DNA from: Candidatus Eremiobacterota bacterium
GTDB lineage: Bacteria > Vulcanimicrobiota > Vulcanimicrobiia > Vulcanimicrobiales > Vulcanimicrobiaceae
Direction: 5' to 3'
Assembly: GCA_019235885.1 (NCBI GenBank)
Contig: JAFAKB010000030.1
Span: 1 to 64,000 of the forward strand
Length of the DNA: 64,000 nt
Below are positions 1-51,649 of this stretch, piece by piece. Under the pieces are notes generated by a model, which saw only the letters and a program-made list of their open reading frames with translations, made no database searches and had not been told where the DNA came from. Position 1 is the first letter of the stretch. Each line of letters opens with the position of its first letter. Both the position numbers and the translations under genes were made by a program.

Positions 1-3000
1 CTCCAGCGCGGCAAGGTATGCGTCGAGCCGTTCGCGGCTCTCGAAGCGGTAGGTGCTGCGTCCGAGATACGGATCGCCCTCACCACCCAAGATGTGGTGG
101 AACAGAATGCCTTCCTGCAGCGGCGCGAGCGGGTAGATATCTTGCACGTTGGCGGCGCCGCCCGGCACCGCCGCGACGACGGCGGCGATCTCAGACGCGC
201 TGAGCTGCACGAGCGGCAGCATCTCGGGCGTGATATGAGTGCAGCCGTCGTCGATCGCATTCGGCGGGATCGCGACGTCCACGCTCTCGTCGCGCACCGC
301 GCTCGCCAGCTCGCGCAGGCTGTTCGAAGCAAAGAACGCCGCCGCATCGACGTGCAGGCCGACTTGGCGCAGGCGCTCCAGCGCTGCGACCACAAGCAGC
401 GAGTGCCCGCCCAGCTCGAAGAAGTTGTCGTTGCGGCCGACGCGCTCGACGTTCAGCAGCTCGCGCCACACCGCCGCCAGCGTCAGCTCGACATCGCCCG
501 CCGGCGCTTCGTACGCGCGCGAGGCGTACGCGCCGTCGTCGGGTGCCGGGAGCACGCGGCGGTCGAGCTTTCCGTGCGCGGTCAGCGGCAGCGCGTCAAG
601 CTGCACGTACGCGGCCGGAACCATGTAGTCGGGCAGGGTCGCGGCGAGGTAGTCGCGCAGCTCCTCCGCGCTCAACGGCGCCGGCGCGGCGTAGTAGGCC
701 ACCAGCCGCTTCTCGCCGTGCCGATCGTCGAGCGGCACGACTGCCGCTTCACGCACCGCCGGATGCGCGCCGAGCCGGGCCTCGATCTCGCCGAGCTCGA
801 TGCGGAATCCGCGGATCTTCACCTGGAAGTCGTTGCGGCCCAAGAACTCGATGTTGCCGTCCGGCAGGTATCGGGCGAGGTCGCCGGACTTGTACAGCCG
901 GTCGCCGTTCACGAACGGGTTCGCGATGAAGCGCTCCGCCGTGAGGTCGTCGCGGTTCAGATAACCCTGCGCGACCTGCGCGCCGCCGATGTACAGCTCG
1001 CCGCCGACGCCGATCGGGGCCGGCTCCATGCGCGCGTCCAAGATGTAGATGCGCGTATTCGCGAACGGCCGGCCGATGCAGTTCGCCACGCCGTTCAGCG
1101 CGATGCCGTCGACGCGGTAGCGCGTGCTGACGATCACCGCTTCGGTCGGCCCGTAGAGCTCGAACACCCGCGCTTTCGGGAAGCGCTCGCGCAGCTTGAT
1201 CAACAGCCGCTCGGGGACCGCCTCGCCGCCGACCAGCACGGTGTGGAGCGAGCGGTACTCGCCCGCGCCGAGCGCGTCGAGCCAAGCTTCCATCAGCGTC
1301 GGCACGGCGTGGAACACGGTCGCGTGCTGCGTGCGCGCGCGCAGCTGCTCCGGGTCTTTCACCTGCGCGTTCGTCAGCAACAGGCTGCAGCCGCCGTTGA
1401 TGAGCGGCATGAGCAGCTCGAAGAGCGCGATGTCGAACGCCGGCGAGGCGAGGTTCGTGACGACGTCGCCGTCGCCGAAGCCGAGATCGCGCTGCACGCC
1501 GAGCAGCCGCGAGCAGAGCTGTCCGTGGCTGACCATCACGCCCTTCGGCGCACCGGTCGAACCGGAGGTGTAGATGACGTAAGCGACATCCGAGGAGCCG
1601 GCGGCGCCGCGCAGGTTCGCGGTGGGCTCCGCCGCCCAGCCGGCGGCGTCGGCGACGACGTCGACGACGCGCGCCGGCGAGCGGTGCAGCAGCTCGGCGC
1701 GCTCGGCGGCGGCGCGCGCGTGCGTCAGCACGACGTGCGGCGCCGCGTCGGCCAGCATGTAGGAGAGGCGCTCGTGCGGATACGCCGGATCGAGCGGCAC
1801 GTACGTGCCGCCTGCCTTGAGCACCGCCAGCACCCCGGTGACGAGCTCCGGACTGCGCTCCATCAGCACGCCGACGCGTGTCTGCGCTTGCACGCCGACC
1901 TTTTGCAGGTACCGCGCCAAGCGATTTGCGCGCGCGTTGAGCTCGGCGTAGCTCACGCGCACGCCGTCGAACTCGACCGCCGGCGCTTCCGGCGCGCGCG
2001 CGGCCTGCTCTTCGAACAGCTGGTGCACGCGGCGGTCGGTGGGGTACGGACGTTCGGTCGCGTTCCACTCCACCAGCAGCTGCGCGCGCTCGCGCTCGGG
2101 GACGACTTCGATGCTCACCAGCGCTCGCGCCGGCTCGTTTTGCAGCGCGTCGGCGACGCCGGCCAGCGCCGCCTGCATGTATCCGCACAAGCGATCCGGG
2201 TCGACCGAGGCGTCCGACTTCACCGAGAGGCTCAGCTCGTCGCCGTGGTCGTTGACCGACATCCCGATCGGGTAGTTCGTCCGCTCCTCGCCGCCGCTCG
2301 CCGCGAAGCCCTTCCAGGCTTCGTCGTCGCCGCTCTTGCGCGGCTTGCCGTGGCGGTAGTTCAGCAGCGCGCTGAACAGCGGCGTCGACGCCGGAACGGC
2401 GCTGCACGCCTGCGCCAGTGTCAGCGGAGCGTGCTCGTGGCGCAGCAGCTGCGCAAGCAGCAACTGCGTCTCCTCGACGCTTTCGCGCACGCCGCGCGCG
2501 CCGATCTTGAGCCGCACCGGGAGCGTGTTCATGAACATGCCGAGCGCACGGCCCGAGCCTTCGCCCTGCATGCGCCCGAACAGCAGCGTGCCGAACACGA
2601 CGTCGTCGCGGCCGGAGACCCGTGCCAGCACGCGCGCCCACGCGACGTGGCAGATGCTGGCGGTGCTGACACCGGTCGAGCGCGCGACCGTGCGCAAGCG
2701 CTCCCCGAGCGCCGCATCGACGACTTGGTACGTCTGCCGCGTCGTCGAGCCGTCGCGGCGCACGTCGACTAGGCCGAAAGGCGCGGTCGGCTCGTCGACG
2801 TCGGCGAGCATCTCGCGGAAGAACTGCTCGTGCTCTTCGCGGCTGACGCCGAGCTTCGCTTGGGCGATGAAGTTCCGGAACGGCACCGGGACCGGCAGCT
2901 CGTGCGCTCGCCCGAGCAGATGCGCTTCGACTTCGTGCTCCATCACCTCCATCGCGGTGTGGTCGCCGAGCAGGTGGTGCTTGAGCAGCACCATCGCCCA

Positions 3001-6000
3001 CCCGTCACCGTCGCTACCGGCGTCGCGCGCGACGTATGCGCGCATGATCGGCGCCTGCCGCACGTCGAGCCGGAAGCGGCGCGGGTTGAAGCGCTCCGCC
3101 AGCTGCCCCGCGACGTCGCCCGCGGCCGGGTCGACGCTGACTTCTTCCACCGCCAGCGGCGCACGGCGCAGCACGACCTGTACCGGCTCGGGCAAGCCCT
3201 CCCACAGAACCGCGGTGCGCAGCACGTCGTGCCGCGCGATCACGGAGTCCAGCGCGGCGAGATATGCGTCGACCCGCTCCCGGCTCTCGAAGCGGTACGT
3301 GCTTCGTCCGAGATACGGATCGCCCTCGCCGCCGAGGATGTGGTGGAACAGAATCCCTTCCTGCAGCGGCGCGAGCGGGTAGATATCTTGCACGTTTGCA
3401 GCGCCGCCCGGCACCGCCGCGACGACGGCGGCGATCTCGGACGCGCTGAGCTGCACGAGCGGCAGCATCTCCGGCGTGATCCGTGTGCAGCCGTCCGCGA
3501 TCGCGTTCGGCGGGATGGCGACGTCCACACTTTCGTCGCGCACGGCGCTTGCCAGCTCGCGCAGCGTGTTTGAAGCAAAGAACGCCGCCGCATCGACGTG
3601 CAGCCCGACTTGGCGCAGGCGCTCGAGCGCCGCGACGACCAGCAGCGAGTGACCGCCCAGCTCGAAGAAGTTGTCGTTCCGGCCGACGCGCTCGACGCCC
3701 AGCAGCTCGCGCCATACCGCGGCGAGCGTGATCTCCGTTTCACCGGCGGGCGCTTCGTACGCGCGGGATGCGTAGGCGGCGTCATCGGGCGCCGGCAGCG
3801 CGCGGCGGTCGAGCTTGCCGTGCGCGGTCAGCGGCAGCGCGTCGAGCTGCACGTACGCGGCCGGAATCATGTACTCAGGCAACGCCGCGGCAACGTGACC
3901 GCGCAACTCGTCCGCTGCCAGCGGCTCGCGCGCGACATAGTACGCCACCAGCCGCCTCTCGCCGTCGCGGCCTTCGAGCGGCACGACTGCCGCTTCACGC
4001 ACCGCCGGATGCGCGGCGAGCCGGGCCTCGATCTCGCCGAGCTCGATCCGGAAGCCGCGAATCTTCACCTGGAAGTCGTTGCGGCCGAGGAACTCGATGT
4101 TGCCGTCCGGCAAGTACCGCGCGAGGTCGCCCGTCTTGTAGAGACGATCACCTTCCACGAACGGGCTCGCGATGAAGCGCTCCGCCGTCAGGTCGGCGCG
4201 ATTGAGGTAACATTGCGCGATCTGAGCGCCGCCGATGTACAGCTCACCGCCGACGCCGATCGGGGTTGGCTGCATGCACGCGTCGAGAACGTAGGCGCGC
4301 GTGTTCGCGAACGGCCGGCCGATGCAATGTGCAACGCCGTTCGGTGCAGCACCGTCCGCACGATACCGTGTGCTGATGATCACCGCTTCCGTCGGGCCGT
4401 AGAATTCGAACACGCGCGCTTTCGGGAAGCGCTCGCGCAGCTTGATCAACAGCCGCTCCGGGACCGCCTCGCCGCCGACGAGCAGCGTGTGCAGCGAGCC
4501 GTACTCGCTCGCGCCGAGCGAGTCGAGCCAGGCTTCCATGAGCGTCGGCACCGCGTGGAACACGGTCGCGTGCTGCGTCCGCGCGCGCAGCTGCTCCGGG
4601 TCTTTCACCTGCGCGTTCGTCAGCAACAGGCTGCAGCCGCCGGTCGTCAGCGGCATCAGCAACTCGAACAGCGCGATGTCGAACGCCGGCGATGCGAGGT
4701 TCGGCATCACGTCGGCGGGGCCGAAGCTCAGGTCGAGCTGCGCGCCGAGCAGCCGCGAGCAGAGCTGCTCGTGGGTGACGACGACGCCCTTCGGCGCGCC
4801 GGTCGAGCCGGAGGTGTAGATCACGTACGCCGGGTCTGAGGGCGCCGCGGCGCCCTGCAGATCCGACGCCTGCATCGCCGACCAGTCACTTGCGCCGGCA
4901 GAGACGTCGACAACGCGAACCGCCGACTGCCGGATCGGCTCCAGGCGGTCCGGCGCGACGCGGCCGTGCGTGAGCACGACCGGCGGCGCCGCATCGGCAA
5001 GCATGGAGGACAGGCGGTCATCCGGGTACGCCGGATCGAGCGGGACGTACGTGCCGCCCGCCTTCAGCACCGCGAGCACGCCGGTGACGAATTCAAAACT
5101 GCGCTCCATCAGCACGCCGACGAGCGTTTGCGCTTGCACGCCGAGCGATTGCAGGTGCCGCGCCAAGCGGTTCGCCTGGGCGTTGAGCTCAGCATAGCTG
5201 ATCCGCTCGCCGTCGAACTCCAGCGCGACCGATTCCGGCGCGCGCACAACCTGCTCTTCGAAGAGCTGATGCACGCAGCGTGCCGCATCGTAGGCGCGTT
5301 CGGTGGCGTTCCACTCGTAGACCACCTGCGCGCGCTCGCGCTCGGGAACTACCTCGACGCTCGCCAGCGCGCGCGCGGGTTCCCGCTCCAGCGCCTCGAC
5401 GACGCCGGCCAGCGCCGTCTGCATGTAGCCGCACAACCGGTCGGGGTCGACCGATTCGTCGGACTTCACCGACAGGCTCAGCTCGTCGCCGTGGTCGTTG
5501 ACCGACATCCCGACCGGGTAGTTGGTGCGCTCCTCGCCGCTCAGGACCGCGATGCCCTGCCATGCCCGATCGGCATCGGCGGAGGTCTCGCTCTTGCGCG
5601 CGCCGTGTCGATAGTTCAACAGCGAGCTGAACAGCGGCGTCGAGCCCGGCACCGCGCTGCAGCGCTGCGCGAGCGCCAGCGGCGCGTGCTCGTGCCGCAA
5701 GAGCTGCGCGAGCAACACGTGCGCGTCCTCGACGCTCTCGCGCACGCTCTTGCCGACCCGCAAGCGCACGGGCAGCGTGTTCATGAACATTCCGATCGCG
5801 CGGTCCGCGCCTTCGGCTTGCATGCGGCCGAACAGCAGCGTGCCGAACACGACGTCGTCGCGGCCGGAGACCCGCGCGAGGACGCGCGCCCACGCGACGT
5901 GGCAGACGCTCGCCGCGCTCACGCCGGCGGCGCGCGCGACGGCGCGCAGGCGCTCCGCGAGCGCCGCGTCGACGACTTGGTACGTCTGCCGCGTCGTCGA

Positions 6001-9000
6001 GCCGTCGCGGCGCACGTCGACCAACCCGAACGGCGCGGTCGGCTCGTCGACGTCCACGAGCATCTCGCGGAAGAACTGCTCGTGCTCTTCGCGGCTCACG
6101 CCCAAGCGCGCTTGCGCGATGAAGTTCCGGAACGGCACCGGCTCCGCCAGCTCGTCAGCGCGCCCGAGCAGATGCATCTGGACTTCGTGCTCCATCACCT
6201 CCATCGCGGTGTGGTCGCCGAGCAGGTGGTGCTTGAGCAAGACCATCGCCCACCCGTCGCCGGCGTCGCGCGCGACGTACGCGCGCATGATCGGCGCCTG
6301 CCGCACGTCGAGCCTGAAGTGGCGCGGGTTGAAGCGCTCCGCGAGCTGCTCCGCGACGTCGCCGGCGGCCGGATCGACGGTCACTTCTTCGACGGCGAGC
6401 GGCGCGCGGCGCAGCACCACTTGAACGGGCTCGGGGAGATTCTCCCACACCACCGCCGTGCACAGCACGTCGTGCCGCGCGATCACCGACTCCAGCGCGT
6501 TGAGATACGCGTCCAGACGCTCGCGGCTCTCGAAGCGATACGCCGTCCGCGAGAGGTACGGATCGCCCTCGCCGCCGAGCAGATGATGGAACAGCACGCC
6601 TTCCTGCAGCGGCGCGAGCGGGTAGACGTCTTGCACGTTCGCCGCGCCGCCCGGCACCGCCGTGACGATCCCGGCGATCTCCGTTACGGTGAGCTGCACC
6701 AGCGGCAGCATCTCCGGCGCGATGTGCGTGCAGCCCTCGGGGATCGCGTTCGGCGGGATTGCGACTTCCGAGCTCTCGTCCTTCACGGCAGCGGCCAGCT
6801 CTTTGAGCGTCCCTGACGCGAAGAACGCCGCCGCATCGACGTGCAGGCCGGCTTGCCGCAAGCGCTCGAGCGCCGCGACGACCAGCAGCGAGTGCCCGCC
6901 CAGCTCGAAGAAGTTGTCGTTGCGCCCGACGCGCTCCACGCCGAGCAGTTCGCGCCACACCGCCGCGAGCGTCAACTCGGTGTCACCGGCCGGCGCTTCG
7001 TACGCGTGCGAGACGTATGCGCCGTCGTCGGGTGCCGGGAGCGCGCGGCGATCCAGCTTGCCGTGCGCCGTCAGCGGCAGCGCGTCGAGCTGCACGTACG
7101 CCGCCGGAATCATGTAGTCCGGGAGCGTCGCCGCGACGTGGCCGCGCAGCTCCTCCGCGCTCAGCGCCGTCGGCGCGGTGTAGTACGCCGCCAGCCGCTT
7201 CTCGCCGGTGCGGTCTTCCAGCGCGACGACCGCCACGTCGCGCACGCCGGGATACGACCACAGCCGCGCCTCGATCTCGCCCAGCTCGATGCGGAAGCCG
7301 CGAATCTTCACCTGGAAGTCGTTCCGGCCCAAGAACTCGATGTTGCCGTCGGGCAAGTAGCGCGCGAGGTCGCCGGTCTTGTACAAACGGTCGCCGTCCA
7401 CGAACGGGCTGGCGATGAACCGCTCCGCCGTCAGGTCGGCGCGATTGAGGTACCCTTGCGCGACCTGCGCGCCGCCGATGTACAGCTCGGCCGCAACCCC
7501 GATCGGCGCCGGCTGCATGCGCGCGTCCAAAATGTACGTGCGCGTGTTCGCGAACGGCCGGCCGATGCAATTCGCCACGCCTTCGAGCGGCGACCCGTCC
7601 GCGCGGAACCGGGTGCTGATGATTACCGCTTCGGTCGGGCCGTAGAACTCGAACACCCGCGCCGCCGGGAAGCGCTGCGTCAGCTTGCGCAGCAGCCGCT
7701 CGGGAACCGCCTCGCCGCCGACCAGCAGCGTATGCAGCGAGCCGTACTCGCTCGCGCCGAGCGCGTCGAGCCACGCCTCCATTAGCGTCGGCACCGCGTG
7801 AAACACGGTCGCGTGCTGCGTGCGCGCGCGCAGCTGCTCCAGGTCTTTTACCTGCGCGCTGCTCAGCAAGAGGCTGCAGCCGCCCGTCGTCAGCGGCATC
7901 AGCAGCTCGAACAGCGCGATGTCGAACGCCGGCGAAGCCAGGTTCGTGACCACGTCGGCGGGCCTGAAACCGAGGTCGAGCTGTGCGCCGAGCAGTCGCG
8001 AGGAGAGCTGCTCGTGGCTCACCATGACGCCTTTCGGCGCGCCGGTCGAGCCGGACGTGTAGATGACGTACGCGAGATCGGAAGGCCCGGCCGCGCCAGG
8101 CAGGTTCGCATCGGACTCCGCGGACCAGTGACGATCATCGGCCACGACGTCGACCACGCGCGCCGACGTAAGGCTCAGCACGTCGGCGCGCTCGCGCGCG
8201 ACACGGCCGTGCGTCAGCACCACCGGCGGCGCCGCATCGCCGAGCATGAACGCCAGCCGCTCCGACGGATACGCCGGATCGAGCGGCACGTAGGCGCCGC
8301 CCGCTTTCAGCACGCCGAGCACGGCGACGACGAATTCCGGGCTGCGCTCCATCAGCACGCCCACCCGCGTCCGCGCCTGCACGCCGAGCGTTCGCAGGTG
8401 CCGCGCCAAGCGGTTCGCGCGGGCGTCGAGCTCGCCGTAGCTCAGCCGCTCGCCGTCCATCTCCAGCGCGACCGACTCCGGCGCGCGCGACGCTTGGTCT
8501 TCGAACAGCTCGTGCACGCAGCGTGCCGCCGCGTAGTCGCGCTCGGTCGCGTTCCACTCGACCAGCACGCGCGCGCGCTCGTCCTCCGGAACCACCTCGA
8601 CGCTCGTCAGCGGGCGCGCCGGATCGCGCTCGAGCGCTTCCACCACGCCGGCCAGCGCCGTCTGCATGTACGCGCTCAGGCGCGAGGGATCGACCGACGC
8701 GTCCGACTTCACCGACAGGCTCAGCGCGCCGCCGCCGTGATCGTTGACCGACATCCCGATCGGGTAGTTGGTCCGTTCCTCGGCCTCTTCGACCGTGATG
8801 CCTTCCCAGGCGTCGCCCGTCGTGTCGCTGTCGTCGTGGCGATAGTTCAGCAGCGCGGTGAAGAGCGGCAACGAGCCCGGCACCGCGCTGCAGCGCTGCG
8901 CCAGCGCCAGCGAGGCGTGCTCGTGGCGTAGGAGTTGCGCGAGCAGCAATTGCGCCTCGTCGACGCTCTCGCGCACGCCGCGCCCGCCGGTCTTCAGCCG

Positions 9001-12000: not shown

Positions 12001-13371
12001 GACGCCGATCGGGTAGTTCGTGCGCTCCTCGCCGCCCAACAGCGAAACGCCGTCCCAGGCACCGCCGGCCTGCGCGCTCGGCGCGGCCCCGTGCCGGTAG
12101 TTCAGCAGCGAGCTGAACAGCGGCGTCGACGCGGGCACCGCGCTGCACGCCTGCGCCAGCGTCAGCGGCGCGTGCTCGTGCCGCAGCAGCTGCGCGAGCA
12201 GCGTCTGCATCGCCTCGACGCTCGCGCCGACGCCGCCGTCGATGCGCGCGCGCACCGGCAGCGTGTTGGTGAACATCCCCAGCGCGCGCTCGACCCCTTC
12301 CCCCTCGCCGCGCCCGAACAGCACCGTCCCGAAGACGACGTCGTCGCGTCCGGAGACGCGCGCCAGCACGCGCGCCCACGCGACGTGCACGACGCTCGCG
12401 GTGCTGACGCCGTTCGCGCGCGCGGCGCTGCGCAGCCGCTCGGCGAGCGCGCCGTCGACGCTCGCCGACGCTTCGCGGATGCGCGACCCGTCGCGCTGCG
12501 CGTCGATCAGTCCGAACGGCGCCGTCGGCTCGTCGACGTCCGCCAGCAGCTCGCGGAAGAACAGCTCGTGCTCTTCGCGGCTGACGCCGCGCCGCGCTTG
12601 CGCGATGAAGTCTCCGAACGAGACCGGCGCCGGCAAGTCGTCCGTCCGTCCCAGCAGATGCGCCTCGATCTCGCGCCGCAGCAGCTGCACCGAGGTGTTG
12701 TCGCCCCAGACGTGGTGCTCGAGCAGCACCATCGCCCAGCACTCGCCGTGCGGCTCGCGCGCCACGAACGCGCGCAGCAGCGGCGCCTGCCGCAGATCGA
12801 GCCGGTAGTGCCGCGGGCTGAACCGCGCGGCAAGCTGCTCCGCCACGTCTCCGTCGCCGAAACCGCCGGTGATCTCTTCGACGACGAGCGGCGCGCTGCG
12901 CAGCACGACCTGAACCGGCTCGGCGAGTCCTTCCCACAGGATCGCGGTGCGCAGCGCGTCGTGCCGGGCGATCGCGCGCTGCAGCGCCGCCAGATACGCA
13001 TCGAGCCGCTCGCGGTTCTCGAACCAGTACGTCTCGCACGAGAGATACGGATCGCCCTCGCCGCTCAGCAGGTGGTGGAACAGGATCCCGTCCTGCAGCG
13101 GCGCCAGCGGGTAGACGTCCTGGACGTTCTCCGCGCCGCCCGGAACCGCGGCGATCACGCTCGCCATCTCCGCCGCGCTGAGCGTGACCAGCGGGCTGGC
13201 GGCCGCGCCGGCGCGCAGGAACTCCAGCAGCTCCGCCTTGTTCTGCCGCAGCAGGTCGATCAGCGCGGAGTCGAGGCGTTCTTGCTCACCGCGAACGACG
13301 AGCTCGTCGCCGTCCACCGCCAGGCTGACGTTCTGCTCCGAGAGCATCGCCACGATCTGATCGCTCTTCAT
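1..13371 (-). CDS. Giant NRPS, TubC docking + four C-A-T modules + partial C (3' end beyond window)
   Basis: Non-ribosomal peptide synthetase, open from its ATG at 13371 to base 1 (4,457 codons, no stop seen). Residues 1-54 look like a TubC-type N-terminal docking domain. Then come four modules of about 1,081 residues, each condensation-adenylation-carrier, and the start of a fifth C domain (about 150-1). The phosphopantetheine serines of GGHSLL fall at residues 1083, 2161, 3242 and 4324, all in one reading phase, which supports a single frame. Every C domain carries HH[I/L]LxGEGD near its start, the dual epimerization/condensation signature, and no separate E domain is present. The main C motif in modules 2-4 is HHLLGDH (module 1 HHVWGDN) in place of HHxxxDG. 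A-domain codes read DIFHLGLIVK (modules 1 and 4) and DIFHLGFIIK (modules 2 and 3), close to 4-hydroxyphenylglycine codes as I recall them. The start overlaps the upstream NRPS stop (ATGA). The number of modules could be wrong if near-identical repeats were collapsed in assembly. Substrate assignment is inference. Confidence 0.93.
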   Translation of the reverse strand, partial: MKSDQIVAMLSEQNVSLAVDGDELVVRGEQERLDSALIDLLRQNKAELLEFLRAGAAASPLVTLSAAEMASVIAAVPGGAENVQDVYPLAPLQDGILFHHLLSGEGDPYLSCETYWFENRERLDAYLAALQRAIARHDALRTAILWEGLAEPVQVVLRSAPLVVEEITGGFGDGDVAEQLAARFSPRHYRLDLRQAPLLRAFVAREPHGECWAMVLLEHHVWGDNTSVQLLRREIEAHLLGRTDDLPAPVSFGDFIAQARRGVSREEHELFFRELLADVDEPTAPFGLIDAQRDGSRIREASASVDGALAERLRSAARANGVSTASVVHVAWARVLARVSGRDDVVFGTVLFGRGEGEGVERALGMFTNTLPVRARIDGGVGASVEAMQTLLAQLLRHEHAPLTLAQACSAVPASTPLFSSLLNYRHGAAPSAQAGGAWDGVSLLGGEERTNYPIGVSVNDTGAELKLSVKSDASVDPERLCGYVQTALAGVVEALERDAARTLASVEVVPEPERARVLYEWNATEHPFGDDRFVHELFEEQAWRAPKAVALEFDGARLSYGELNARANRLARHLRMLGVQAQTRVGVLMERSLELVVGVLAVLKAGAVYVPLDPAYPEERLAFMLADAAPPVVLTHPHVARDRAELLRQAAVRVVDVVADADAWSWEPECNPPALAAPSDPAYVIYTSGSTGAPKGVMVSHEQLCSRLLGAQLDLRLGRADVVTNLASPAFDIALFELLMPLVTGGRSLLLGAADVRDLAQLRARTRRATVFHAVPTLMEAWLDAIGPSEYGALHTLLVGGEAVPQRLLRKLTERFPQARVFELYGPTEAVIVSTRYRADGTPLEGVANCIGRPFANTRTYVLDARMQPAPIGVGGELYVGGAQVALGYLNRDDLTAERFIASPFVDGDRLYKTGDLARYLPDSNIEFLGRNDFQVKIRGFRIELGEIEARLWSYPGVRDIAVIALEDRAGEKRLVAYYTAGAAAGAPDAPSAEDLRGHVAATLPDYMIPAAYVHLAALPLTAHGKLDRRALPAPDEDAYVSRAYEAPAGDVELTLAAVWRELLGVERVGRNDNFFELGGHSLLVVAALERLRQVGLHVDAAAFFASTTLSELASAVREESLQVAIPPNAIPDGCTAIAPEMLPLVALNAAEIAAVVSAVPGGAANVQDVYPLAPLQEGVLFHHLLGGEGDPYLSRTVYRFESRARLDAYLQALEAVIARHDVLRTAVVWEGLSEPVQVVLRRAPLTVEEVSADPAAGDVGEQLAARFDPRSFRLDVRQAPIMRAYVARGAGEAWAMVLLKHHLLGDHTAMELMQAEVEAHLLGRADALPEPVPFRNFIAQARLGVSREEHELFFRELLEDVDEPTAPYGLVDVRRDGSATRQAFEVVDAALAHRLRSVARSIGVSTASICHVAWARVLARVSGRDDVVFGTLMFGRMQGAGSDRALGMFMNTLPVRLKTGGRGVRESVDEAQLLLAQLLRHEHASLALAQRCSAVPGSLPLFTALLNYRHDDSDTTGDAWEGITVEEAEERTNYPIGMSVNDHGGGALSLSVKSDASVDPSRLSAYMQTALAGVVEALERDPARPLTSVEVVPEDERARVLVEWNATERDYAAARCVHELFEDQASRAPESVALEMDGERLSYGELDARANRLARHLRTLGVQARTRVGVLMERSPEFVVAVLGVLKAGGAYVPLDPAYPSERLAFMLGDAAPPVVLTHGRVARERADVLSLTSARVVDVVADDRHWSAESDANLPGAAGPSDLAYVIYTSGSTGAPKGVMVSHEQLSSRLLGAQLDLGFRPADVVTNLASPAFDIALFELLMPLTTGGCSLLLSSAQVKDLEQLRARTQHATVFHAVPTLMEAWLDALGASEYGSLHTLLVGGEAVPERLLRKLTQRFPAARVFEFYGPTEAVIISTRFRADGSPLEGVANCIGRPFANTRTYILDARMQPAPIGVAAELYIGGAQVAQGYLNRADLTAERFIASPFVDGDRLYKTGDLARYLPDGNIEFLGRNDFQVKIRGFRIELGEIEARLWSYPGVRDVAVVALEDRTGEKRLAAYYTAPTALSAEELRGHVAATLPDYMIPAAYVQLDALPLTAHGKLDRRALPAPDDGAYVSHAYEAPAGDTELTLAAVWRELLGVERVGRNDNFFELGGHSLLVVAALERLRQAGLHVDAAAFFASGTLKELAAAVKDESSEVAIPPNAIPEGCTHIAPEMLPLVQLTVTEIAGIVTAVPGGAANVQDVYPLAPLQEGVLFHHLLGGEGDPYLSRTAYRFESRERLDAYLNALESVIARHDVLCTAVVWENLPEPVQVVLRRAPLAVEEVTVDPAAGDVAEQLAERFNPRHFRLDVRQAPIMRAYVARDAGDGWAMVLLKHHLLGDHTAMEVMEHEVQMHLLGRADELAEPVPFRNFIAQARLGVSREEHEQFFREMLVDVDEPTAPFGLVDVRRDGSTTRQTYQVVDAALAERLRAVARAAGVSAASVCHVAWARVLARVSGRDDVVFGTLLFGRMQAEGADRAIGMFMNTLPVRLRVGKSVRESVEDAHVLLAQLLRHEHAPLALAQRCSAVPGSTPLFSSLLNYRHGARKSETSADADRAWQGIAVLSGEERTNYPVGMSVNDHGDELSLSVKSDESVDPDRLCGYMQTALAGVVEALEREPARALASVEVVPERERAQVVYEWNATERAYDAARCVHQLFEEQVVRAPESVALEFDGERISYAELNAQANRLARHLQSLGVQAQTLVGVLMERSFEFVTGVLAVLKAGGTYVPLDPAYPDDRLSSMLADAAPPVVLTHGRVAPDRLEPIRQSAVRVVDVSAGASDWSAMQASDLQGAAAPSDPAYVIYTSGSTGAPKGVVVTHEQLCSRLLGAQLDLSFGPADVMPNLASPAFDIALFELLMPLTTGGCSLLLTNAQVKDPEQLRARTQHATVFHAVPTLMEAWLDSLGASEYGSLHTLLVGGEAVPERLLIKLRERFPKARVFEFYGPTEAVIISTRYRADGAAPNGVAHCIGRPFANTRAYVLDACMQPTPIGVGGELYIGGAQIAQCYLNRADLTAERFIASPFVEGDRLYKTGDLARYLPDGNIEFLGRNDFQVKIRGFRIELGEIEARLAAHPAVREAAVVPLEGRDGERRLVAYYVAREPLAADELRGHVAAALPEYMIPAAYVQLDALPLTAHGKLDRRALPAPDDAAYASRAYEAPAGETEITLAAVWRELLGVERVGRNDNFFELGGHSLLVVAALERLRQVGLHVDAAAFFASNTLRELASAVRDESVDVAIPPNAIADGCTRITPEMLPLVQLSASEIAAVVAAVPGGAANVQDIYPLAPLQEGILFHHILGGEGDPYLGRSTYRFESRERVDAYLAALDSVIARHDVLRTAVLWEGLPEPVQVVLRRAPLAVEEVSVDPAAGDVAGQLAERFNPRRFRLDVRQAPIMRAYVARDAGSDGDGWAMVLLKHHLLGDHTAMEVMEHEVEAHLLGRAHELPVPVPFRNFIAQAKLGVSREEHEQFFREMLADVDEPTAPFGLVDVRRDGSTTRQTYQVVDAALGERLRTVARSTGVSTASICHVAWARVLARVSGRDDVVFGTLLFGRMQGEGSGRALGMFMNTLPVRLKIGARGVRESVEETQLLLAQLLRHEHAPLTLAQACSAVPASTPLFSALLNYRHGKPRKSGDDEAWKGFAASGGEERTNYPIGMSVNDHGDELSLSVKSDASVDPDRLCGYMQAALAGVADALQNEPARALVSIEVVPERERAQLLVEWNATERPYPTDRRVHQLFEEQAARAPEAPAVEFDGVRVSYAELNARANRLARYLQKVGVQAQTRVGVLMERSPELVTGVLAVLKAGGTYVPLDPAYPHERLSYMLADAAPHVVLTHARAAAERAELLHRSPARVVDVVADAAGWAAEPTANLRGAAGSSDVAYVIYTSGSTGAPKGVMVSHGQLCSRLLGVQRDLGFGDGDVVTNLASPAFDIALFELLMPLINGGCSLLLTNAQVKDPEQLRARTQHATVFHAVPTLMEAWLDALGAGEYRSLHTVLVGGEAVPERLLIKLRERFPKARVFELYGPTEAVIVSTRYRVDGIALNGVANCIGRPFANTRIYILDARMEPAPIGVGGELYIGGAQVAQGYLNRDDLTAERFIANPFVNGDRLYKSGDLARYLPDGNIEFLGRNDFQVKIRGFRIELGEIEARLGAHPAVREAAVVPLDDRHGEKRLVAYYAAPAPLSAEELRDYLAATLPDYMVPAAYVQLDALPLTAHGKLDRRVLPAPDDGAYASRAYEAPAGDVELTLAAVWRELLNVERVGRNDNFFELGGHSLLVVAALERLRQVGLHVDAAAFFASNSLRELASAVRDESVDVAIPPNAIDDGCTHITPEMLPLVQLSASEIAAVVAAVPGGAANVQDIYPLAPLQEGILFHHILGGEGDPYLGRSTYRFESRERLDAYLAALE

Positions 13372-16300
13372 ATCCGGACTTCTCCAAGTTGGGTCGTGAT
13401 GGTAGCCGCGTTGGCCAGCGTCCTCGAGACGAACAGATCGCTGATCTCGGCGTGCAAGCCGGCGCCGCGCATGCGCTGAATCGCGTGGATCATCAACAGC
13501 GAGTGGCCGCCGAGCTCGAAGAAATTGTCATGGCGCCCGACGCGCTCGAGCTTGAGCAGATCGCGCCAGATCGCTGCCAGCGCCGTCTCGACCGGGCCGA
13601 CCGGCTCCTCGAAGCGGCGCGTGCGCTGCGCGCCGCCGGGAGCGGGCAGCGCCGCGCGGTCGAGCTTGCCGTTCGGGGTGAGCGGAAAGGACTCCAACTG
13701 CACGTACGCCGAGGGCACCATGTGCTCGGGGAGCGCGGTCGACAACGCGTTGCGCAGCTCGTCGGCGCGAATCTCGTCCGGCGCCGTGAAGTACGCCGCT
13801 AGCCGTTTCTCGCCGCCGTCGTCGAGCGCGACGACGACCGCCTCGCGCACGCCGGGATGCGCGGCGAGCCGCGCTTCGATCTCGCCCAGTTCGACGCGAA
13901 ACCCGCGGATCTTCACCTGAAAGTCGTTGCGCCCGAGATACTCGAGCGTGCCGTCGGCGAGGTGGCGCGCCAGGTCGCCGGTCTTGTAGAGGCGATCGCC
14001 GGCGACGAACGGATTCGCGACGAAGCGCTCCGCCGTAAGCTCCGGACGGTTGAGATAGCCGCGCCCGACCTGCACGCCGCCGATGTAGAGCTCGCCGGTC
14101 ACGCCGGCGGGGACGAGCTCGCGGTGCGCGTCGAGCACGTAGGCGCGCGTGTTCGCGATCGGCCGGCCGATCGGGATGTTCGGCGGCAGCGCGCGCGCCG
14201 GACAGCGCCACGCGGTCACGTCGACCGCGGCCTCCGTCGGCCCGTACAAGTTCGAAAGCTGCGCGAACGGAAGCCGCTCGGAGAAGCGCTCCGCGAGCGC
14301 GCGCGGGAGCGCCTCGCCGCTGCAGATCACGTGCTCGAGCGTCGTGCACCGCTCGGCGTGCGCGGCGTCGACGAAGAACCCCAGCATCGAGGGGACGGCG
14401 TGCATCATCGTGACGCGCGCCTCGCGCACGACGCGCACCAGGTAGTCGGGGTCTCTGTGCCCGCCGGCGCGCGCCATCACCAGCCGCGCGCCGCTCAGCA
14501 GCGGCAGGAAAAACTCCCACACCGAGACGTCGAAGCTGAACGGGGTCTTCTGCAGCACCGCGTCGTCCGCGCCCAGCGTGTACTCGTCTTGCATCCAGAG
14601 CAGCCGGTTGACGACGCCGCGGTGCTCGTTCATCGCACCCTTCGGCTTGCCGGTCGAGCCGGAGGTGTAGATGACGTACGCCAGATGCGAGGACAGCAGT
14701 CCGGCGCGCGCGAGGTTCTCCTCGGATTCGTCGGCCCAACGCGGCGCGTCCGCGGCGACGTCGAGCGCCGGCACGCCGGTGCGCCGCAGCGCCGCACGCA
14801 CGCCGGCCGGAACCGCGTCGTGCGCGAGCAGCAGCGCCGGCGCGGCGTCTTCGACCAGATACGCGAGCCGCTCGAGCGGATAGCCGGGATCGAGCGGAAC
14901 GTACGCGCCGCCGGCTTTGAGCACGGCCAGCAGCGCGACGACCAGCTCCGTGCTGCGCTCCATGCAGACCGCGACGCGCACGCCGGGGCCGACGCCGCGC
15001 GCGCGCAGGTGCCGCGCCAGCCGGTTCGCCTGCGCGTTGAGCTCGGCGTAGCTGAGCCGCATGCCCTCGTGGTCGACCGCGACGGCGTGCGGCGAGCGCG
15101 CGACCTGCGCTTCGACCAGCTCGTGCACGCACAGCTCGGCCGGGTACGTCCGCGCGGTCGCGTTCCAGTCGACGAGCGCGCGCCGGCGTTCGCTCGCGGC
15201 GAGCAGCGGAAGCCGGCCGATCGCCTGCGCGTCGCCGGCGGTCATCGCGACGAGCAGCCGGCGGAAGTACTCACCGTAGCGCACCACCGTCTCGCGGTCG
15301 AACAGCGCGGTCGCGTAGACGATCACGCCGCGGATGCGATCGCCGTCCTCGCACAGCTCGGCGACCAGATCGGTCTTCGCGGCGTGCAGGTTCGAGGCCG
15401 GAAAGATTGCGTTCGCGTCCCAGCTCTGCCACACCAGCATCGTCTGAAACAGCGGCGTGTACGCGAGGCTGCGCGGCGGGTTCACCGCTTCGACGACTTG
15501 GCCGAACGGTGCGTCTTGGTGCTCGTGCGCCGCGCCGACCTGCGCTTTCACCCGCGCGAGCGCTTCGCCGACCGTGGGGCCGCCGCCGTACTCCAGCCGC
15601 AGTGCCAGCGTGTTGACGAAGAAGCCGAGCAGCGGCTCGAGCTCAGGTCGCGTGCGGTTCGCGACCGCGGTTCCGACCACGACGACGTCCTGCACGGCGA
15701 GCCGCGAGAGCAGCGCGCCCCACGCGGTGAGCAGCGTCATGAAGAGCGTCGCGCCGTGACGGCGGCTGAGCGACTTCAGCTTCGCGGTGAGCTCGGCGTC
15801 GATCTCGAACGGAACGTGCGCGCCGGCGTAGTCCTGGCGCGCGGGACGCGGGCGGTCCGCCGGCAGCTCGACGACGGCGGGAACCTCGCGCAGCGCGTCC
15901 CGCCAATAGGCGAGCTGCTCGCGCCCCGCGTTCGTGCGGCGCTGCCACGCCGCGTGATCGACGGGCTGAATCGCCGGCGGCGGCAGCTGATTCGGCTGCC
16001 CGGTTCGGAACGCGCCGTACAACGCAGCGAGCTCGCGCGAGAACAGCGCCGCCGACCAGCCGTCGAAGACGGCGTGGTGCGCGGTGACCAGCAGCACGTG
16101 ATCGTCGTCGGCGACGGTGATCAGGCGTGCGCGCACGAGCGGCCCGGTCGCGAGATCGAATGGGGCGTTCATCTCCTCGCCGGCGATGCGCGCCCGCAAC
16201 GAGAACGGGCCGTCGAGTCCGCGCAGGTCGTGCTCGATCAGCGGCATTCTGGTGTTCGGCGGACCGATGCGCTGCGCCGGCGCGCCGTCGAGGGCGACGA

Positions 16301-18305
16301 ACGTCGTGCGCAGCGCCTCGTGGCGCGCGACGATTGCGTCGAGCGCACGGCGCAGCGCGCGCACGTTGAGCGGACCGGACAGCGGCAGCGCGATCGGGAC
16401 GTGGTACGCGAGGCTCGCGCGCGGATCCAACTGGGTCAAGAACCACAACCGCTCTTGCTCGAACGAGAGCGGCAGCCGCTGCGCTCGATCGGCTGGCACG
16501 ATCGCCGGCCGCGCGGATCGTTCTTGCTCGAGCGCGTGCGCAAGATCGGCGAGCACGGGATGCGAGAACAGGCTCCCCGAGCGCAGCTCGAGGCCGAGCG
16601 CGTCGCGCACCTGTGAGAGCACGCGCATCGCGAGCAGCGAGTGGCCGCCCAGCGCGAAGAAGTTGTCGCGGCGGCCGACGCGCTCGACGCCGAGCAGCTC
16701 GCTCCAGATCGCCGCCAGCGCCGTCTCGACCGGGCCGACCGGCTCTTCATAGGCGGCCGACGCGTACGCGGCGTCGTCGGGCGCCGGGAGCGCGTTGCGG
16801 TCGAGCTTGCCGCTCGCGCCGAGCGGCATCGCTTCGAGGTGCACGAACGCCGAGGGGACCATGTAGTCCGGAAGCGCCGCCAGCAGATGGCGCCGCAGCG
16901 CGCCGGCGTGCACGTGTTCCGGCGCCGTGTAGTACGCGACCAGACGTTTCTCGCCGGCGCGGTCGTCGAGCGCGACGACGACGCTCTCGCGGACGCCGCG
17001 GTACGCCGCCAGCCGCGCTTCGATCTCGCCGAGCTCGATGCGGAAACCGCGGATCTTCACCTGAAAGTCGTTGCGCCCGACGTACTCGACCGTGCCGTCG
17101 GGAAGGAAGCGTGCGAGGTCGCCGGTCTTGTACACGCGCTCGCCCGGGACGAACGGGTTCAGGACGAACCGCTGCGCGGTGAGCTCCGGACGGCGCAGGT
17201 AGCCGCGCCCGACCGGCACGCCGCCGATGTGCAGCTCGCCGACGGTTCCGCGCGGCACCTGCTGCATCGTTTCGTCGAGCACGTAGATGCGCGCGCCGGC
17301 GATCGGCCGGCCGATCGGGATGCGCGCCGGCACGTTTTCGCGCGGGCAGCGCCACGCGGTGACCTCGATCGCGGTCTCGGTCGGACCGTACAAGTTCGAG
17401 AGCTGCACCTGCGGAAGGCGCTCGTACAAGCGCACCGCGAGGTGCCGCGGCAGCGCCTCGCCGCTGCAGAACACGTGCCGCAGCGTCGAACAGCGCGCCG
17501 AGCCGGGATGCTCGACGAAATACGTCAGCATCGAGGGCACGAAGTGGATCGCCGTGATGCGCCGCCGCTGCACGAGCTCGGCGAGGTATGCGGGGTCCTG
17601 GTGGCCGCCGGGACGCGCCATCACCAGCCGCGCGCCGCTCAGCAGCGGCCACCAGAACTCCCACACCGAGACGTCGAACGTGAACGGCGTCTTCTGCAGC
17701 ACCGCGTCGTCCGCGCCGATCGGGTACTCCGCGTCCATCCAGAGCAGCCGGTTGACGACGGCGCGGTGCTCGTTCATCGCGCCCTTCGGCTGGCCGGTCG
17801 AGCCCGAGGTGTAGATGACGTAGCACAGGTTCGCCGGCGACAGGTCGCCGCGCTCGAGGTCGGCGCCGGATTCGGCGGCCCAGCGCCGCGCGTCGCGCGC
17901 GACGTCGATCGCCGGCACGTTGCCGCGCGCGAGCGTCTCGCGCACCTCCGCGCTCACCGCGCCGTGCACGAGGACGAGCGCCGGGGCGCTGTCCTGCAGC
18001 ATGTACTCGAGCCGCGCGGGCGGATACCGCGGGTCGAGCGGCACGTACGCGCCGCCCGCTTTGAGCACGGCGAGCAGCGCGATCGTGAGCTCCGCGCTGC
18101 GCTCCATGCAGACCGCGACCAGCCGCTCCGGCCCGACGCCCTGCGCGCGCAGGTGCCGCGCCAAGCGGTTCGCGCGCGCGTTCAGCTCGGCGTACGTGAG
18201 CGCCTCGTCTTCGAACTCGAGCGCCGTCGCGTCCGGCGAGGCCGCCGCCTGCTTCTCGATCAGCTCGTGCAGACAGACGTCGCGCGAATAGGGCCGCTCC
18301 GTCAT
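13368..18305 (-). CDS. NRPS, A-T-C-A-T, two serine-type modules
   Basis: A 1,645-residue NRPS that probably starts the assembly line, since it opens directly with an A domain (residues about 10-520) and has no starter C domain. Carrier serines in GGHSLL are at residues 556 and 1602. Between them is a canonical LCL-like condensation domain with HHAVFDG near residue 744, followed by a second A domain from about residue 1050. Specificity residues read from the A4-A5 region are DVWHFSLIEK and DVWHISLVDK. These are near-identical to known serine codes (EntF type, DVWHFSLVDK), so Ser-Ser is predicted. There is no thioesterase. The C-terminus, after the second carrier, is the likely docking partner of the TubC-like domain of the next protein. 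The ATG at 18305 overlaps the aminotransferase stop (ATGA), and its own stop overlaps the giant NRPS start, so translation is probably coupled. Confidence 0.95.
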   Translation of the reverse strand: MTERPYSRDVCLHELIEKQAAASPDATALEFEDEALTYAELNARANRLARHLRAQGVGPERLVAVCMERSAELTIALLAVLKAGGAYVPLDPRYPPARLEYMLQDSAPALVLVHGAVSAEVRETLARGNVPAIDVARDARRWAAESGADLERGDLSPANLCYVIYTSGSTGQPKGAMNEHRAVVNRLLWMDAEYPIGADDAVLQKTPFTFDVSVWEFWWPLLSGARLVMARPGGHQDPAYLAELVQRRRITAIHFVPSMLTYFVEHPGSARCSTLRHVFCSGEALPRHLAVRLYERLPQVQLSNLYGPTETAIEVTAWRCPRENVPARIPIGRPIAGARIYVLDETMQQVPRGTVGELHIGGVPVGRGYLRRPELTAQRFVLNPFVPGERVYKTGDLARFLPDGTVEYVGRNDFQVKIRGFRIELGEIEARLAAYRGVRESVVVALDDRAGEKRLVAYYTAPEHVHAGALRRHLLAALPDYMVPSAFVHLEAMPLGASGKLDRNALPAPDDAAYASAAYEEPVGPVETALAAIWSELLGVERVGRRDNFFALGGHSLLAMRVLSQVRDALGLELRSGSLFSHPVLADLAHALEQERSARPAIVPADRAQRLPLSFEQERLWFLTQLDPRASLAYHVPIALPLSGPLNVRALRRALDAIVARHEALRTTFVALDGAPAQRIGPPNTRMPLIEHDLRGLDGPFSLRARIAGEEMNAPFDLATGPLVRARLITVADDDHVLLVTAHHAVFDGWSAALFSRELAALYGAFRTGQPNQLPPPAIQPVDHAAWQRRTNAGREQLAYWRDALREVPAVVELPADRPRPARQDYAGAHVPFEIDAELTAKLKSLSRRHGATLFMTLLTAWGALLSRLAVQDVVVVGTAVANRTRPELEPLLGFFVNTLALRLEYGGGPTVGEALARVKAQVGAAHEHQDAPFGQVVEAVNPPRSLAYTPLFQTMLVWQSWDANAIFPASNLHAAKTDLVAELCEDGDRIRGVIVYATALFDRETVVRYGEYFRRLLVAMTAGDAQAIGRLPLLAASERRRALVDWNATARTYPAELCVHELVEAQVARSPHAVAVDHEGMRLSYAELNAQANRLARHLRARGVGPGVRVAVCMERSTELVVALLAVLKAGGAYVPLDPGYPLERLAYLVEDAAPALLLAHDAVPAGVRAALRRTGVPALDVAADAPRWADESEENLARAGLLSSHLAYVIYTSGSTGKPKGAMNEHRGVVNRLLWMQDEYTLGADDAVLQKTPFSFDVSVWEFFLPLLSGARLVMARAGGHRDPDYLVRVVREARVTMMHAVPSMLGFFVDAAHAERCTTLEHVICSGEALPRALAERFSERLPFAQLSNLYGPTEAAVDVTAWRCPARALPPNIPIGRPIANTRAYVLDAHRELVPAGVTGELYIGGVQVGRGYLNRPELTAERFVANPFVAGDRLYKTGDLARHLADGTLEYLGRNDFQVKIRGFRVELGEIEARLAAHPGVREAVVVALDDGGEKRLAAYFTAPDEIRADELRNALSTALPEHMVPSAYVQLESFPLTPNGKLDRAALPAPGGAQRTRRFEEPVGPVETALAAIWRDLLKLERVGRHDNFFELGGHSLLMIHAIQRMRGAGLHAEISDLFVSRTLANAATITTQLGEVRI

Positions 18306-19570
18306 GGCTGCAAGCGCTGCCGCACGTAGGACGCGAACGCCGCGACGCCGCGGCCGATCTCGTCCTCGGACACGTTGCTGAACGAGAGCCGCACGCTCTC
18401 GTGCTGCGTCCCGTCGAGCGAGAAGAACGTCATCGGCATGGTGAGGACGCCGTACTCGCTCGCGCACGTCAGCATGTCGTCGCGCATGAACGCGAACGGC
18501 AGCCGCAGGCTCAGGAAGAACCCGCCCTCCGGCCGGTTCCACGTCACCCGGTCGCGCACCGGCCCGAGGTGCGTTTCGAGCGCGCTCAGCAGCGCGTCGC
18601 GGTTGCGGTGATAGAACGTACGGGACGGCTCGATGAAGCGCTGCAGCGAGCCGCCTTCGCGCAGCAGGATCCCGCCCACCATCGCCTGATTGATCTGGCT
18701 CGTGTTGACGGTGACGTAGCTCCTGCGCTCGCCGAGCTCCGTCTTGAGCGCGCGGCTCGCCGCCGCGCTGCCGAACAGTGTGTCGGGAACGACCGCGAAG
18801 CCGACGCGCACCGCCGGGCAGATCGTCTTCGAGTACGTGCCCAGGTGCAGCACCACGCCGTACTCGTCGAGCGCGGCGAGCGCCGGCGGCGCCTTGCCCT
18901 CGAAGCGGAACATCCCGTACGGGTTGTCCTCGAGGATCGCGATCCGGTACCGCTCGCACAGCGCGAGCGTGGCGAGCCGGTCGCTCTCGCTCAGGACGAC
19001 GCCCGTCGGGTTGTCGAACTCCGGGATCAGGTACAGCGCGCGCGGCTGCCGGCCTTGCGCGAGCTCGGAGCCGATCGTGCACGCGAGCGCGGCCGGGAAA
19101 TCGTCGCCGTCGTCTTCGCCGATCGGAACCAGCGGGATGCCGGCGCAATCAGCCGCGCCCGTCGCGCCGATGTAGGTGGGATTGCGCGCGAGCGCGACGT
19201 CGCCGGGCTGGGGGCACAGCGCCTGCAGGCAGAGCGCGAGCGCCTCCTGGCAGCCGTTCATCACGATGACCTGCTCGCCCGAGCACGGCACGCCGTGGTC
19301 GGCGCCGATCTGCTCCGCGACCAGCTCGTTCACGATCCCGGCCGCGCGCCCGTATTGCGCGAGCAGCCCGCCGACGGTGTCCGCGTTCGAGCGCTGCTGG
19401 CGCACGACGTGATCCCGGTAGCGCGGAATCTCGCCGAGCCATCCGTCCAAGTCGAAGAACTGCTGGGCAGGGCGTCCCGACGCGAACGAGATCGCGTGCG
19501 GGTAATCGAGCGCGGCCTCGGACAGAAAATTCATGACCGAGAGGCGCGATTGCGTCTCTTGCTGCACCAT
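18302..19570 (-). CDS. PLP aminotransferase, HpgT-like (arylglycine transaminase candidate)
   Basis: A 422-residue fold-type I aminotransferase. The N-terminal motif SVMNFLSEAALDYP followed by SFASGRP resembles the HpgT/PglE group that aminates arylglyoxylates to 4-hydroxyphenylglycine or phenylglycine. The PLP lysine is K248 in GTYSKT, and PEFDNPTG and EDNPYG are the expected cofactor-site segments. There is no N-terminal GntR domain, unlike MocR regulators. The gene lies 24 bp after the VOC gene and its stop overlaps the NRPS start, so it is co-transcribed with the peptide assembly line and most likely feeds it a non-proteinogenic amino acid. The general fold is certain. The HpgT assignment is inferred from motif memory and context, and a KAT/AadR-like 2-aminoadipate aminotransferase is the alternative. 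Confidence 0.82.
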   Translation of the reverse strand: MVQQETQSRLSVMNFLSEAALDYPHAISFASGRPAQQFFDLDGWLGEIPRYRDHVVRQQRSNADTVGGLLAQYGRAAGIVNELVAEQIGADHGVPCSGEQVIVMNGCQEALALCLQALCPQPGDVALARNPTYIGATGAADCAGIPLVPIGEDDGDDFPAALACTIGSELAQGRQPRALYLIPEFDNPTGVVLSESDRLATLALCERYRIAILEDNPYGMFRFEGKAPPALAALDEYGVVLHLGTYSKTICPAVRVGFAVVPDTLFGSAAASRALKTELGERRSYVTVNTSQINQAMVGGILLREGGSLQRFIEPSRTFYHRNRDALLSALETHLGPVRDRVTWNRPEGGFFLSLRLPFAFMRDDMLTCASEYGVLTMPMTFFSLDGTQHESVRLSFSNVSEDEIGRGVAAFASYVRQRLQP

Positions 19571-19594
19571 GGCGGGTTCCGAAAAACTACTGCT

Positions 19595-20131
19595 CTAGTA
19601 CGAGCCGGAGCTTTCGAGCTGGTCGAAAAGATCCTGAACGTTCTGCGAGAGGAAGCCTTCTTCGCCGCTGCGGTTGATGAACTCGAACGCGAGCCCGGAG
19701 TTGTGGTCGCGCGACGAGAACGCCTGTTTCAAGCCGGGACCGGTGATCACCGAGGTGTCGAACTTCAAGCCGCTCTCTTTGAGGTCGGCGACCGCTTCGT
19801 CGACGTCGTCGACGGCCAGCGCGACGTGCGCGACGCCCGGTCCGAAGTGCTCGATGAGCTTGGAGACTTGCGACTCGGGCTCCGTCCCTTGGCACAGCAC
19901 GAACTTGATGCCGTTGCACTCCATCTCCGCGGAGATCATGCCGGTGCGCTTTCCGCGCGTCTCGAGCCGCCGGATCAGCTCGAAGCCGACGACGTTGCCG
20001 AAGAACTCGATCGCCGCTTCGAGGTCGTGTACGGCGAACGCAATGTGGTCGATGCGCTGATAGCGCGGTGCCGCAGTTGTCTCTGGGACTGATTGCTCGA
20101 CAAGGGAACTCACAGAAAACCGCCTTTCCAC
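19595..20131 (-). CDS. Single-domain VOC metalloenzyme (HPPD/hydroxymandelate synthase-like candidate)
   Basis: A 178-residue vicinal-oxygen-chelate (glyoxalase/dioxygenase superfamily) protein. A complete 2-His-1-carboxylate set is visible: H29 in IDHIAF, H102 in GVAHVAL and E150 in AFEFIN. The segment GPGLKQAFSSRD is reminiscent of the dioxygenase branch. True 4-hydroxymandelate synthase and HPPD are about twice this length with two VOC units, so this would have to work as a dimer or be something else; methylmalonyl-CoA epimerase-like enzymes are the main alternative. It is the first gene of the NRPS operon, directly ahead of the HpgT-like gene, so a role in making the arylglycine precursor is a reasonable inference. 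The start is a GTG at 20131 with no strong Shine-Dalgarno, so the first 20 residues are uncertain. Confidence 0.75.
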   Translation of the reverse strand: MERRFSVSSLVEQSVPETTAAPRYQRIDHIAFAVHDLEAAIEFFGNVVGFELIRRLETRGKRTGMISAEMECNGIKFVLCQGTEPESQVSKLIEHFGPGVAHVALAVDDVDEAVADLKESGLKFDTSVITGPGLKQAFSSRDHNSGLAFEFINRSGEEGFLSQNVQDLFDQLESSGSY

Positions 20132-20592: not shown

Positions 20593-20858
20593 CGTCGCAC
20601 CGCAGTCACGGTGAGACACCGCCCTGGTTGCCGTTCCGCTCGCATCTTCCTTATATGCGCGTGGACCACTCGGGCCTCATCCTCGCCGCAGCTGCTGCGG
20701 CATTCGTGACACCTGTACCGGTATGCCCGCACCGCGATCACGAGAAGTATCCACGAAAGCAACGCCGCAGCTAATGTGACCTTAATGACACGAAGGCCGC
20801 GCGGCTACGGCGCGGTCGCGGTTGCGGCGCGTGCCTCGGAGATGGAGCAAGGACAATC

Positions 20859-20877
20859 CGGCCGCCGTCGGCGGCCG
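20859..20877 (+). promoter_or_regulatory. GC-rich hairpin ahead of TonB receptor
   Basis: CGGCCGCC and GGCGGCCG form an 8-bp stem with a GTC loop, followed by TCTTA. It lies about 50 nt before the preferred TTG start at 20930 and could act as a leader structure or attenuator. If translation instead began at 20822 it would be within the coding sequence. Confidence 0.3.
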
Positions 20878-20929
20878 TCTTACCGGAGAGAGTCGCCACC
20901 CGACGCGCTTCGGCTCCTGGAGGTCTTCG

Positions 20930-23114: not shown

Positions 23115-29173
<6,059 letters not shown>

Positions 29174-51567: not shown

Positions 51568-51618
51568 CCCCCACCCTCCAAACGCTTCGAGGGGCGATTA
51601 TACGGCACGACCCGGGAC

Positions 51619-51649
51619 TTGCCACAAGCCCGGGGTCCTACGGTATAAT
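51619..51649 (+). promoter_or_regulatory. Sigma70-like promoter TTGCCA-N19-TATAAT
   Basis: TTGCCA at 51619-51624 and a perfect TATAAT at 51644-51649 stand out in this GC-rich DNA. The spacer of 19 bp is slightly long. It reads rightward into a short inverted repeat (TTCTCAA-ACTG-TTGAGAG, about 51676-51693) and then a 230-bp stretch before a small acidic gene. A small RNA is possible. Confidence 0.4.

Follow-up and report, generated by a model that had tools for sequence, protein, structure and literature searches.

The operon at the left end of the window probably produces 4-hydroxyphenylglycine (Hpg) or a closely similar arylglycine by way of a one-domain VOC-family enzyme, and polymerises it. 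The window is the whole stretch of DNA analysed, C30:1-64000 (64,000 bp of a 64,360-bp contig), from a genome of 4.50 Mb in 105 contigs that is 95% complete. As the preliminary description had proposed, the VOC enzyme, an aminotransferase (AT) and two NRPS genes (NRPS1 and NRPS2, in that order on the minus strand) form one tightly coupled operon, in which neighbouring genes are separated by 24 bp or overlap at their stop and start codons. The VOC gene (19595..20131, −) encodes 178 aa and lies 24 bp upstream of the AT gene (18302..19570, −), which encodes a 422-aa PLP aminotransferase of the HpgT/PglE type (Pfam Aminotran_1_2). The ATG of NRPS1 overlaps the AT stop, and the start of NRPS2 overlaps the NRPS1 stop.

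By Pfam domains and A-domain codes, NRPS1 (13368..18305, −) is an A-T-C-A-T protein with two Ser-type modules and without a starter C domain; its single C domain (15183-16481, −) reads by motif as the ordinary, L-donor type. NRPS2 (1..13371, −) has a TubC_N docking domain followed by (C-A-T)x4; its frame is still open at the contig end, where a fifth C domain has just begun. Four near-identical modules in a single open 13-kb frame are beyond chance. Two TonB-dependent receptor genes adjoin the operon (20822-23044, +, and 23115-26708, −), followed by a catalase-peroxidase-like haem peroxidase with two peroxidase domains (26753-29173, +). An FAD-dependent aromatic-ring hydroxylase (50102-51625, −) is unlinked to the operon.

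The leftward extension proposed in the preliminary description was possible through exact overlaps, and it carries the operon onto two further contigs. The first 137 bp of the window (1..137, −) are identical to C63:330-466. C63 is a 3,414-bp contig holding one aryl module with the code DIFHLGFIIK; its two ends are the same 147 bp, which are also identical to C14:99064-99210 at the right end of that contig. In a whole-genome domain search, condensation domains were confined to C30, C63, C14 and C20, and open NRPS ends occurred only on C30, C63 and C14. From the exact 137- and 147-bp overlaps, the sole consistent order is C30, C63 (one or more times) and C14. On C14 the line continues with a module of the Ser type (code DVWHVSLVDK) and a C domain of the ordinary kind; a separate A-T-TE gene and a halogenase gene follow. 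The NRPS on C20 (L019:4475-8749) is a separate, self-contained single module, C-A-T-TE, with the code DIEDIGGIAK.

A broken or chimeric cluster, whether from a mis-binned contig or as a decayed locus without product, is a very unlikely explanation. It would account for the higher GC content of the operon (71%, flank 65%), for the lack of a VOC gene in any of the 148 further genomes of the phylum that were searched, and for the failure to find a 4-hydroxymandelate oxidase (Hmo). Against it, no reading frame is interrupted across the 20 kb, stops and starts overlap, and a regulator family encoded in the flank is shared by 9 of 10 further genomes from the genus. The high GC and sporadic occurrence are also consistent with horizontal gain, to which the sparse distribution of the VOC gene points (1 of 149 genomes of the window's phylum and 5 of 398 in Burkholderiaceae).

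The A-domain codes were read by alignment. Both NRPS1 codes, DVWHFSLIEK and DVWHISLVDK, are of the Ser type. In NRPS2 the codes of modules 3 to 6 are DIFHLGLIVK, DIFHLGFIIK, DIFHLGFIIK and DIFHLGLIVK; the respective A-domain core starts lie at 11062..11322, 7810..8070, 4567..4827 and 1321..1581 (−), with the A3 motifs at 11322, 8070, 4827 and 1581. A parallel reading of a Nonomuraea gerenzanensis locus, which from its position we take to be the dbv (A40926) cluster as the record is without annotation, gave DIFHLGLLCK, DALHLGLLCK and DAFHLGLLCK. The NRPS2 codes differ from DIFHLGLLCK at 2 to 3 positions (6 or 7 of the 9 variable positions are identical), and on sequence grounds they are Hpg-like. 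The Ser-Ser start, the four tandem Hpg-like domains and the four or more arylglycines that had been described all stand, the last now raised to at least five by the C63 module; this aryl count is a lower bound because the copy number of that module is not fixed by the assembly. The A-T-TE gene on C14 has the code DVGHFSLVEK, and its residue is written here as X. The predicted peptide is Ser-D-Ser-(D-aryl)5 or more-Ser-X, probably chlorinated.

The D configurations are read from the C domains. The motif HH[I/L]xxxxGD near the N terminus is the mark of dual E/C domains (PMC1894796). All four complete C domains of NRPS2 have the dual E/C motif (11845-13125, 8569-9870, 5323-6636 and 2074-3393, −), and the matching sequence FHH[LI]LxGEGD was found in every NRPS2 and C63 C domain with a visible N terminus; it is absent from the NRPS1 C domain and from the last C domain on C14. 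The prediction is L-Ser followed by D-Ser, a wholly D aryl block, and L-Ser and L-X at the end. Dual E/C domains may be silent (PMC10531924), so the stereochemistry stays a prediction. Of the D-peptide first proposed, the D residues are probable, but the chain would not be all-D, with L residues predicted at the N-terminal Ser and at the last two positions. We also considered beta-lactam formation of the nocardicin type, which uses a C domain with an extra His; it was rejected, since the C domain after Ser2 has the motif EHHVWGDN without that residue.

The supply of the arylglycine would begin with the VOC protein. Pfam finds in it a single VOC/glyoxalase domain, whereas canonical hydroxymandelate synthase (HmaS) has two VOC domains and about 350-370 aa (359 aa in the Streptomyces copy that we examined). 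The protein is therefore not a canonical two-domain HmaS, and against the NCBIfam 4HPPD model it scored 77.6 bits, under the cut-off of 277. An AlphaFold2 model (pLDDT 84.9) aligned over residues 13-177 with residues 166-367 of S. coelicolor HMS (3zgj; Z 19.4, rmsd 3.4, 164 residues) and over residues 22-177 with A. orientalis HmaS (2r5v; Z 18.9, rmsd 2.6, 156 residues). His29, His102 and Glu150 are invariant across 30 members of the family, align with the H, H and E of canonical Streptomyces HmaS, and are the presumed iron ligands. Judged from the model, the protein has the catalytic-domain fold and the 2-His-1-Glu site of HmaS.

A methylmalonyl-CoA epimerase or glyoxalase-like protein, unrelated to arylglycine supply and next to Hpg-like codes by coincidence, would have the same one-domain length. 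In a single-sequence search epimerases and HPPDs scored about equally, with methylmalonyl-CoA epimerase slightly ahead. With a profile of 30 relatives the order was reversed: the best HPPD/HmaS chains gave 1e-19 to 1e-23 and methylmalonyl-CoA epimerase about 1e-13. As the profile and the full-length fold, C-terminal tail included, both favour HPPD/HmaS, and as an HpgT-type AT is linked in 34 of 34 related loci and an Hmo-family oxidase in 14, we rejected the epimerase assignment and consider this explanation very improbable. A role as HPPD was likewise set aside, a separate full-length HPPD being already present in the genome on C7. Phe169, an HPPD-like residue, aligns with HMS Tyr359 (numbering from PMC3720870), so that it is the gene neighbourhood, not the sequence, that decides between mandelate and homogentisate chemistry. 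We infer that the VOC protein is a one-domain relative of the catalytic half of HmaS, and predict from the profile and fold matches that it is a compact hydroxymandelate synthase. The fit of the co-located VOC and HpgT pair to the HmaS route holds in the preliminary description as regards the HpgT-type AT, but the VOC protein is not the canonical two-domain enzyme. In the open-access literature searched, we found no description of a one-domain hydroxymandelate synthase.

A scan of GTDB genomes gave 34 VOC-family loci at 49-69% identity, all proteobacterial. Hosts of the family include Xanthomonas, Lysobacter, Trinickia, relatives of Duganella, Vibrio and nodule rhizobia. An HpgT-like AT lies within 6 kb of the VOC gene in all 34 loci and is directly adjacent in 28; FMN_dh (the Hmo family) is adjacent in 14 and Ldh_2 in 2. 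A plasmid search recovered the VOC-AT-NRPS cassette from Rhizobium, Sinorhizobium, Bradyrhizobium and Vibrio; in Paraburkholderia it found a VOC gene with an NRPS. Most VOC-linked clusters hold an A domain with an Hpg-like code. The H-x-G code (His at 278, Gly at 301) was read in 17 of 19 such clusters, both exceptions being only partly read; the background set is small and its one positive lies inside a VOC locus, so this count serves as support only. Codes in the family include DAMHLGCTFK (Trinickia) and DILHLGCTFK (Bradyrhizobium, Rhizobium and Sinorhizobium). Both codes appear under Hpg in PMC12283262, a survey from 2025 that covers published assembly lines, and the assignment depends on it.

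In Rhizobium sp. T136 (L034:2507-29300), isolated from a nodule, the cassette includes an NRPS of 8,001 aa and lies on a plasmid, roughly 13 kb away from nifHDK; other nodule rhizobia and Paraburkholderia sabiae have copies like it. The AT of Bradyrhizobium sp. 187 (L029:14562-15886) is split over two reading frames, and that copy is probably a pseudogene. Genome G506 has two VOC genes, one beside an NRPS with DAMHLGCTFK and without an AT, the other with an AT and FMN_dh and without a nearby NRPS (L206-L208 and L203-L205), which suggests supply in trans. A distinct group of one-domain VOC proteins (L076-L101; roughly 27-35% identity), mostly from Nitrospira and relatives or nitrite oxidisers, has no AT nearby.

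The same logic could serve another aryl residue, with phenylglycine, 4-aminophenylglycine or a ring-substituted Hpg formed from the matching arylpyruvate. On plasmid accessoryA of S. meliloti T073 (L032:9680-10462) a VOC relative is fused to chorismate mutase and sits between pabB and prephenate dehydrogenase, beside an NRPS and a class IV aminotransferase. This context suggests that some members may use 4-aminophenylpyruvate, and the locus is possibly a 4-aminophenylglycine route. The pab genes near the Bradyrhizobium 187 VOC copy point the same way, and the NRPS2 codes are close, not identical, to known Hpg codes. However, the genes seen next to the window cluster include no pab genes, a phenol ring would suit the CndH-like halogenase described below, and Hpg-assigned codes are found in VOC-AT clusters. 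We consider a different aryl residue unlikely here, and Hpg the probable product.

In a maximum-likelihood tree the AT falls in a clade supported at 99/99 with all VOC-linked ATs and the HpgT/PglE references, a clade that also takes in one long-branch outgroup row of unsure place. The five references were dbv HpgT and enzymes beside HmaS, Dpg and Pgl genes. The AT is thus inside the HpgT/PglE clade, and its earlier description as HpgT-like is supported. Within the clade, the VOC-linked ATs, that of the window included, are sister to the actinobacterial enzymes with weaker support (85/63).

The 4-hydroxymandelate oxidase had been noted as absent from the window, and the genome search proposed for it agreed: no full PF01070 match was found in the 95% complete genome by profile search. 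The best match to that profile looks like an isopentenyl diphosphate isomerase of type 2 (IDI-2) and was rejected as an Hmo candidate. The genome has three Ldh_2 genes, of a set shared across the genus; since Ldh_2 occurs in 11 of 11 genomes of the genus and the VOC gene in only this one, Ldh_2 was rejected as a dedicated oxidase here. The rhizobial VOC members are likewise without a linked oxidase. The oxidation may fall to an unlinked enzyme, to one encoded in the 5% of the genome that the assembly lacks, or to the VOC enzyme. Taken furthest, the one-domain enzyme would be a minimal hydroxymandelate synthase that also oxidises its product to 4-hydroxyphenylglyoxylate and feeds a peptide in which at least five D-Hpg form a chlorinated block, a proposal that we regard as speculative and rather improbable. 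If it were true, VOC and AT alone would make a complete two-enzyme Hpg pathway where no oxidase is linked, as here and in the rhizobia.

A flavin halogenase gene lies directly behind the TE gene on C14. It has the motifs GAGPAG (GxGxxG) and WFWYIP (WxWxIP) that mark flavin-dependent halogenases. Its closest PDB match is 3e1t (5.5e-156), labelled 'Halogenase' in the search output and presumably the chondrochloren halogenase CndH. CndH, here the closest solved relative and with the same motifs, has a tyrosine-derived substrate within a PKS-NRPS assembly line. No counterpart of the C14 halogenase was found in the VOC-relative loci examined. A PPTase and an MsbA-like ABC exporter are encoded a few kb beyond it on the opposite strand.

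In the pathway that we propose, the VOC protein would act as a non-heme Fe(II) enzyme, corresponding to the catalytic C-terminal half of HmaS, and convert 4-hydroxyphenylpyruvate to 4-hydroxymandelate, and an oxidase, here perhaps encoded outside the operon, would convert this to 4-hydroxyphenylglyoxylate. The AT, judged from its clade, would then form L-Hpg. NRPS1 would load Ser and add a second Ser; NRPS2, C63 and C14 would add at least five Hpg, with the dual C/E domains epimerising Ser2 and every Hpg. A further Ser and residue X would follow before the TE releases the chain. Phenol rings bound to the carrier protein are probably chlorinated by the CndH-like halogenase; the nearby PPTase and exporter may serve the assembly line.

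Like the HmaS-Hmo-HpgT route of glycopeptides such as A40926, the operon would have an arylpyruvate dioxygenase and an HpgT-type AT feeding modules of the DxFHLGLxxK type. That route uses a two-domain dioxygenase of about 360 aa in place of one VOC domain of 178 aa, and its Hmo-family oxidase occurs in many VOC relatives but not beside the window cluster. Streptomyces ISL-87 (L113) has the canonical two-domain HmaS, the FMN oxidase and HpgT together. The Hp-TA-DH trio of Xanthomonas META-B clusters and the Dd703_3065/3064 pair of Dickeya were described in 2013 (PMC3849588), where the amino acid made by the trio was left unidentified and no tie to hydroxymandelate synthase was drawn. Our Xanthomonas VOC loci match Hp-TA-DH, with VOC, an HpgT-type AT and an FMN_dh 'lactate dehydrogenase' beside an NRPS, and this same arrangement names the likely product of the trio; the organisms and peptides of the META-B and Dickeya systems differ from those of the window.

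The comparison with feglymycin in the preliminary description is loose. Feglymycin is linear and rich in hydroxyphenylglycines, as the window peptide would be. The residues of feglymycin, an actinomycete product, alternate, whereas the window peptide would have one unbroken aryl block with Ser on both sides, and a CndH-like halogenase is present. It is a 13-mer with Dpg among its residues (PMC5133696), and no Dpg biosynthesis genes were seen among the ORFs scanned beside the NRPS genes. The window line has no starter C domain and would make a homo-block. Ramoplanin and enduracidin, by comparison, are actinomycete lipodepsipeptides of mixed sequence with several Hpg, some chlorinated, and canonical HmaS.

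Antibiotics of the glycopeptide (vancomycin) and ramoplanin types, and feglymycin, have Hpg as a key residue. The two-domain HmaS is the usual marker for the supply of Hpg, so that genome-mining rules built on that enzyme would miss the one-domain VOC family. The Hpg pathway itself is known; the predicted novelty lies in a variant supply with a half-size synthase and in the unusually long aryl block. If the one-domain enzyme is active, half of HmaS suffices. The host lies outside the usual actinomycetes, as first described, and is not closely related to any of the usual antibiotic producers; its predicted D-arylglycine homo-block, unusually long and probably chlorinated, would be a lead for a new peptide class.
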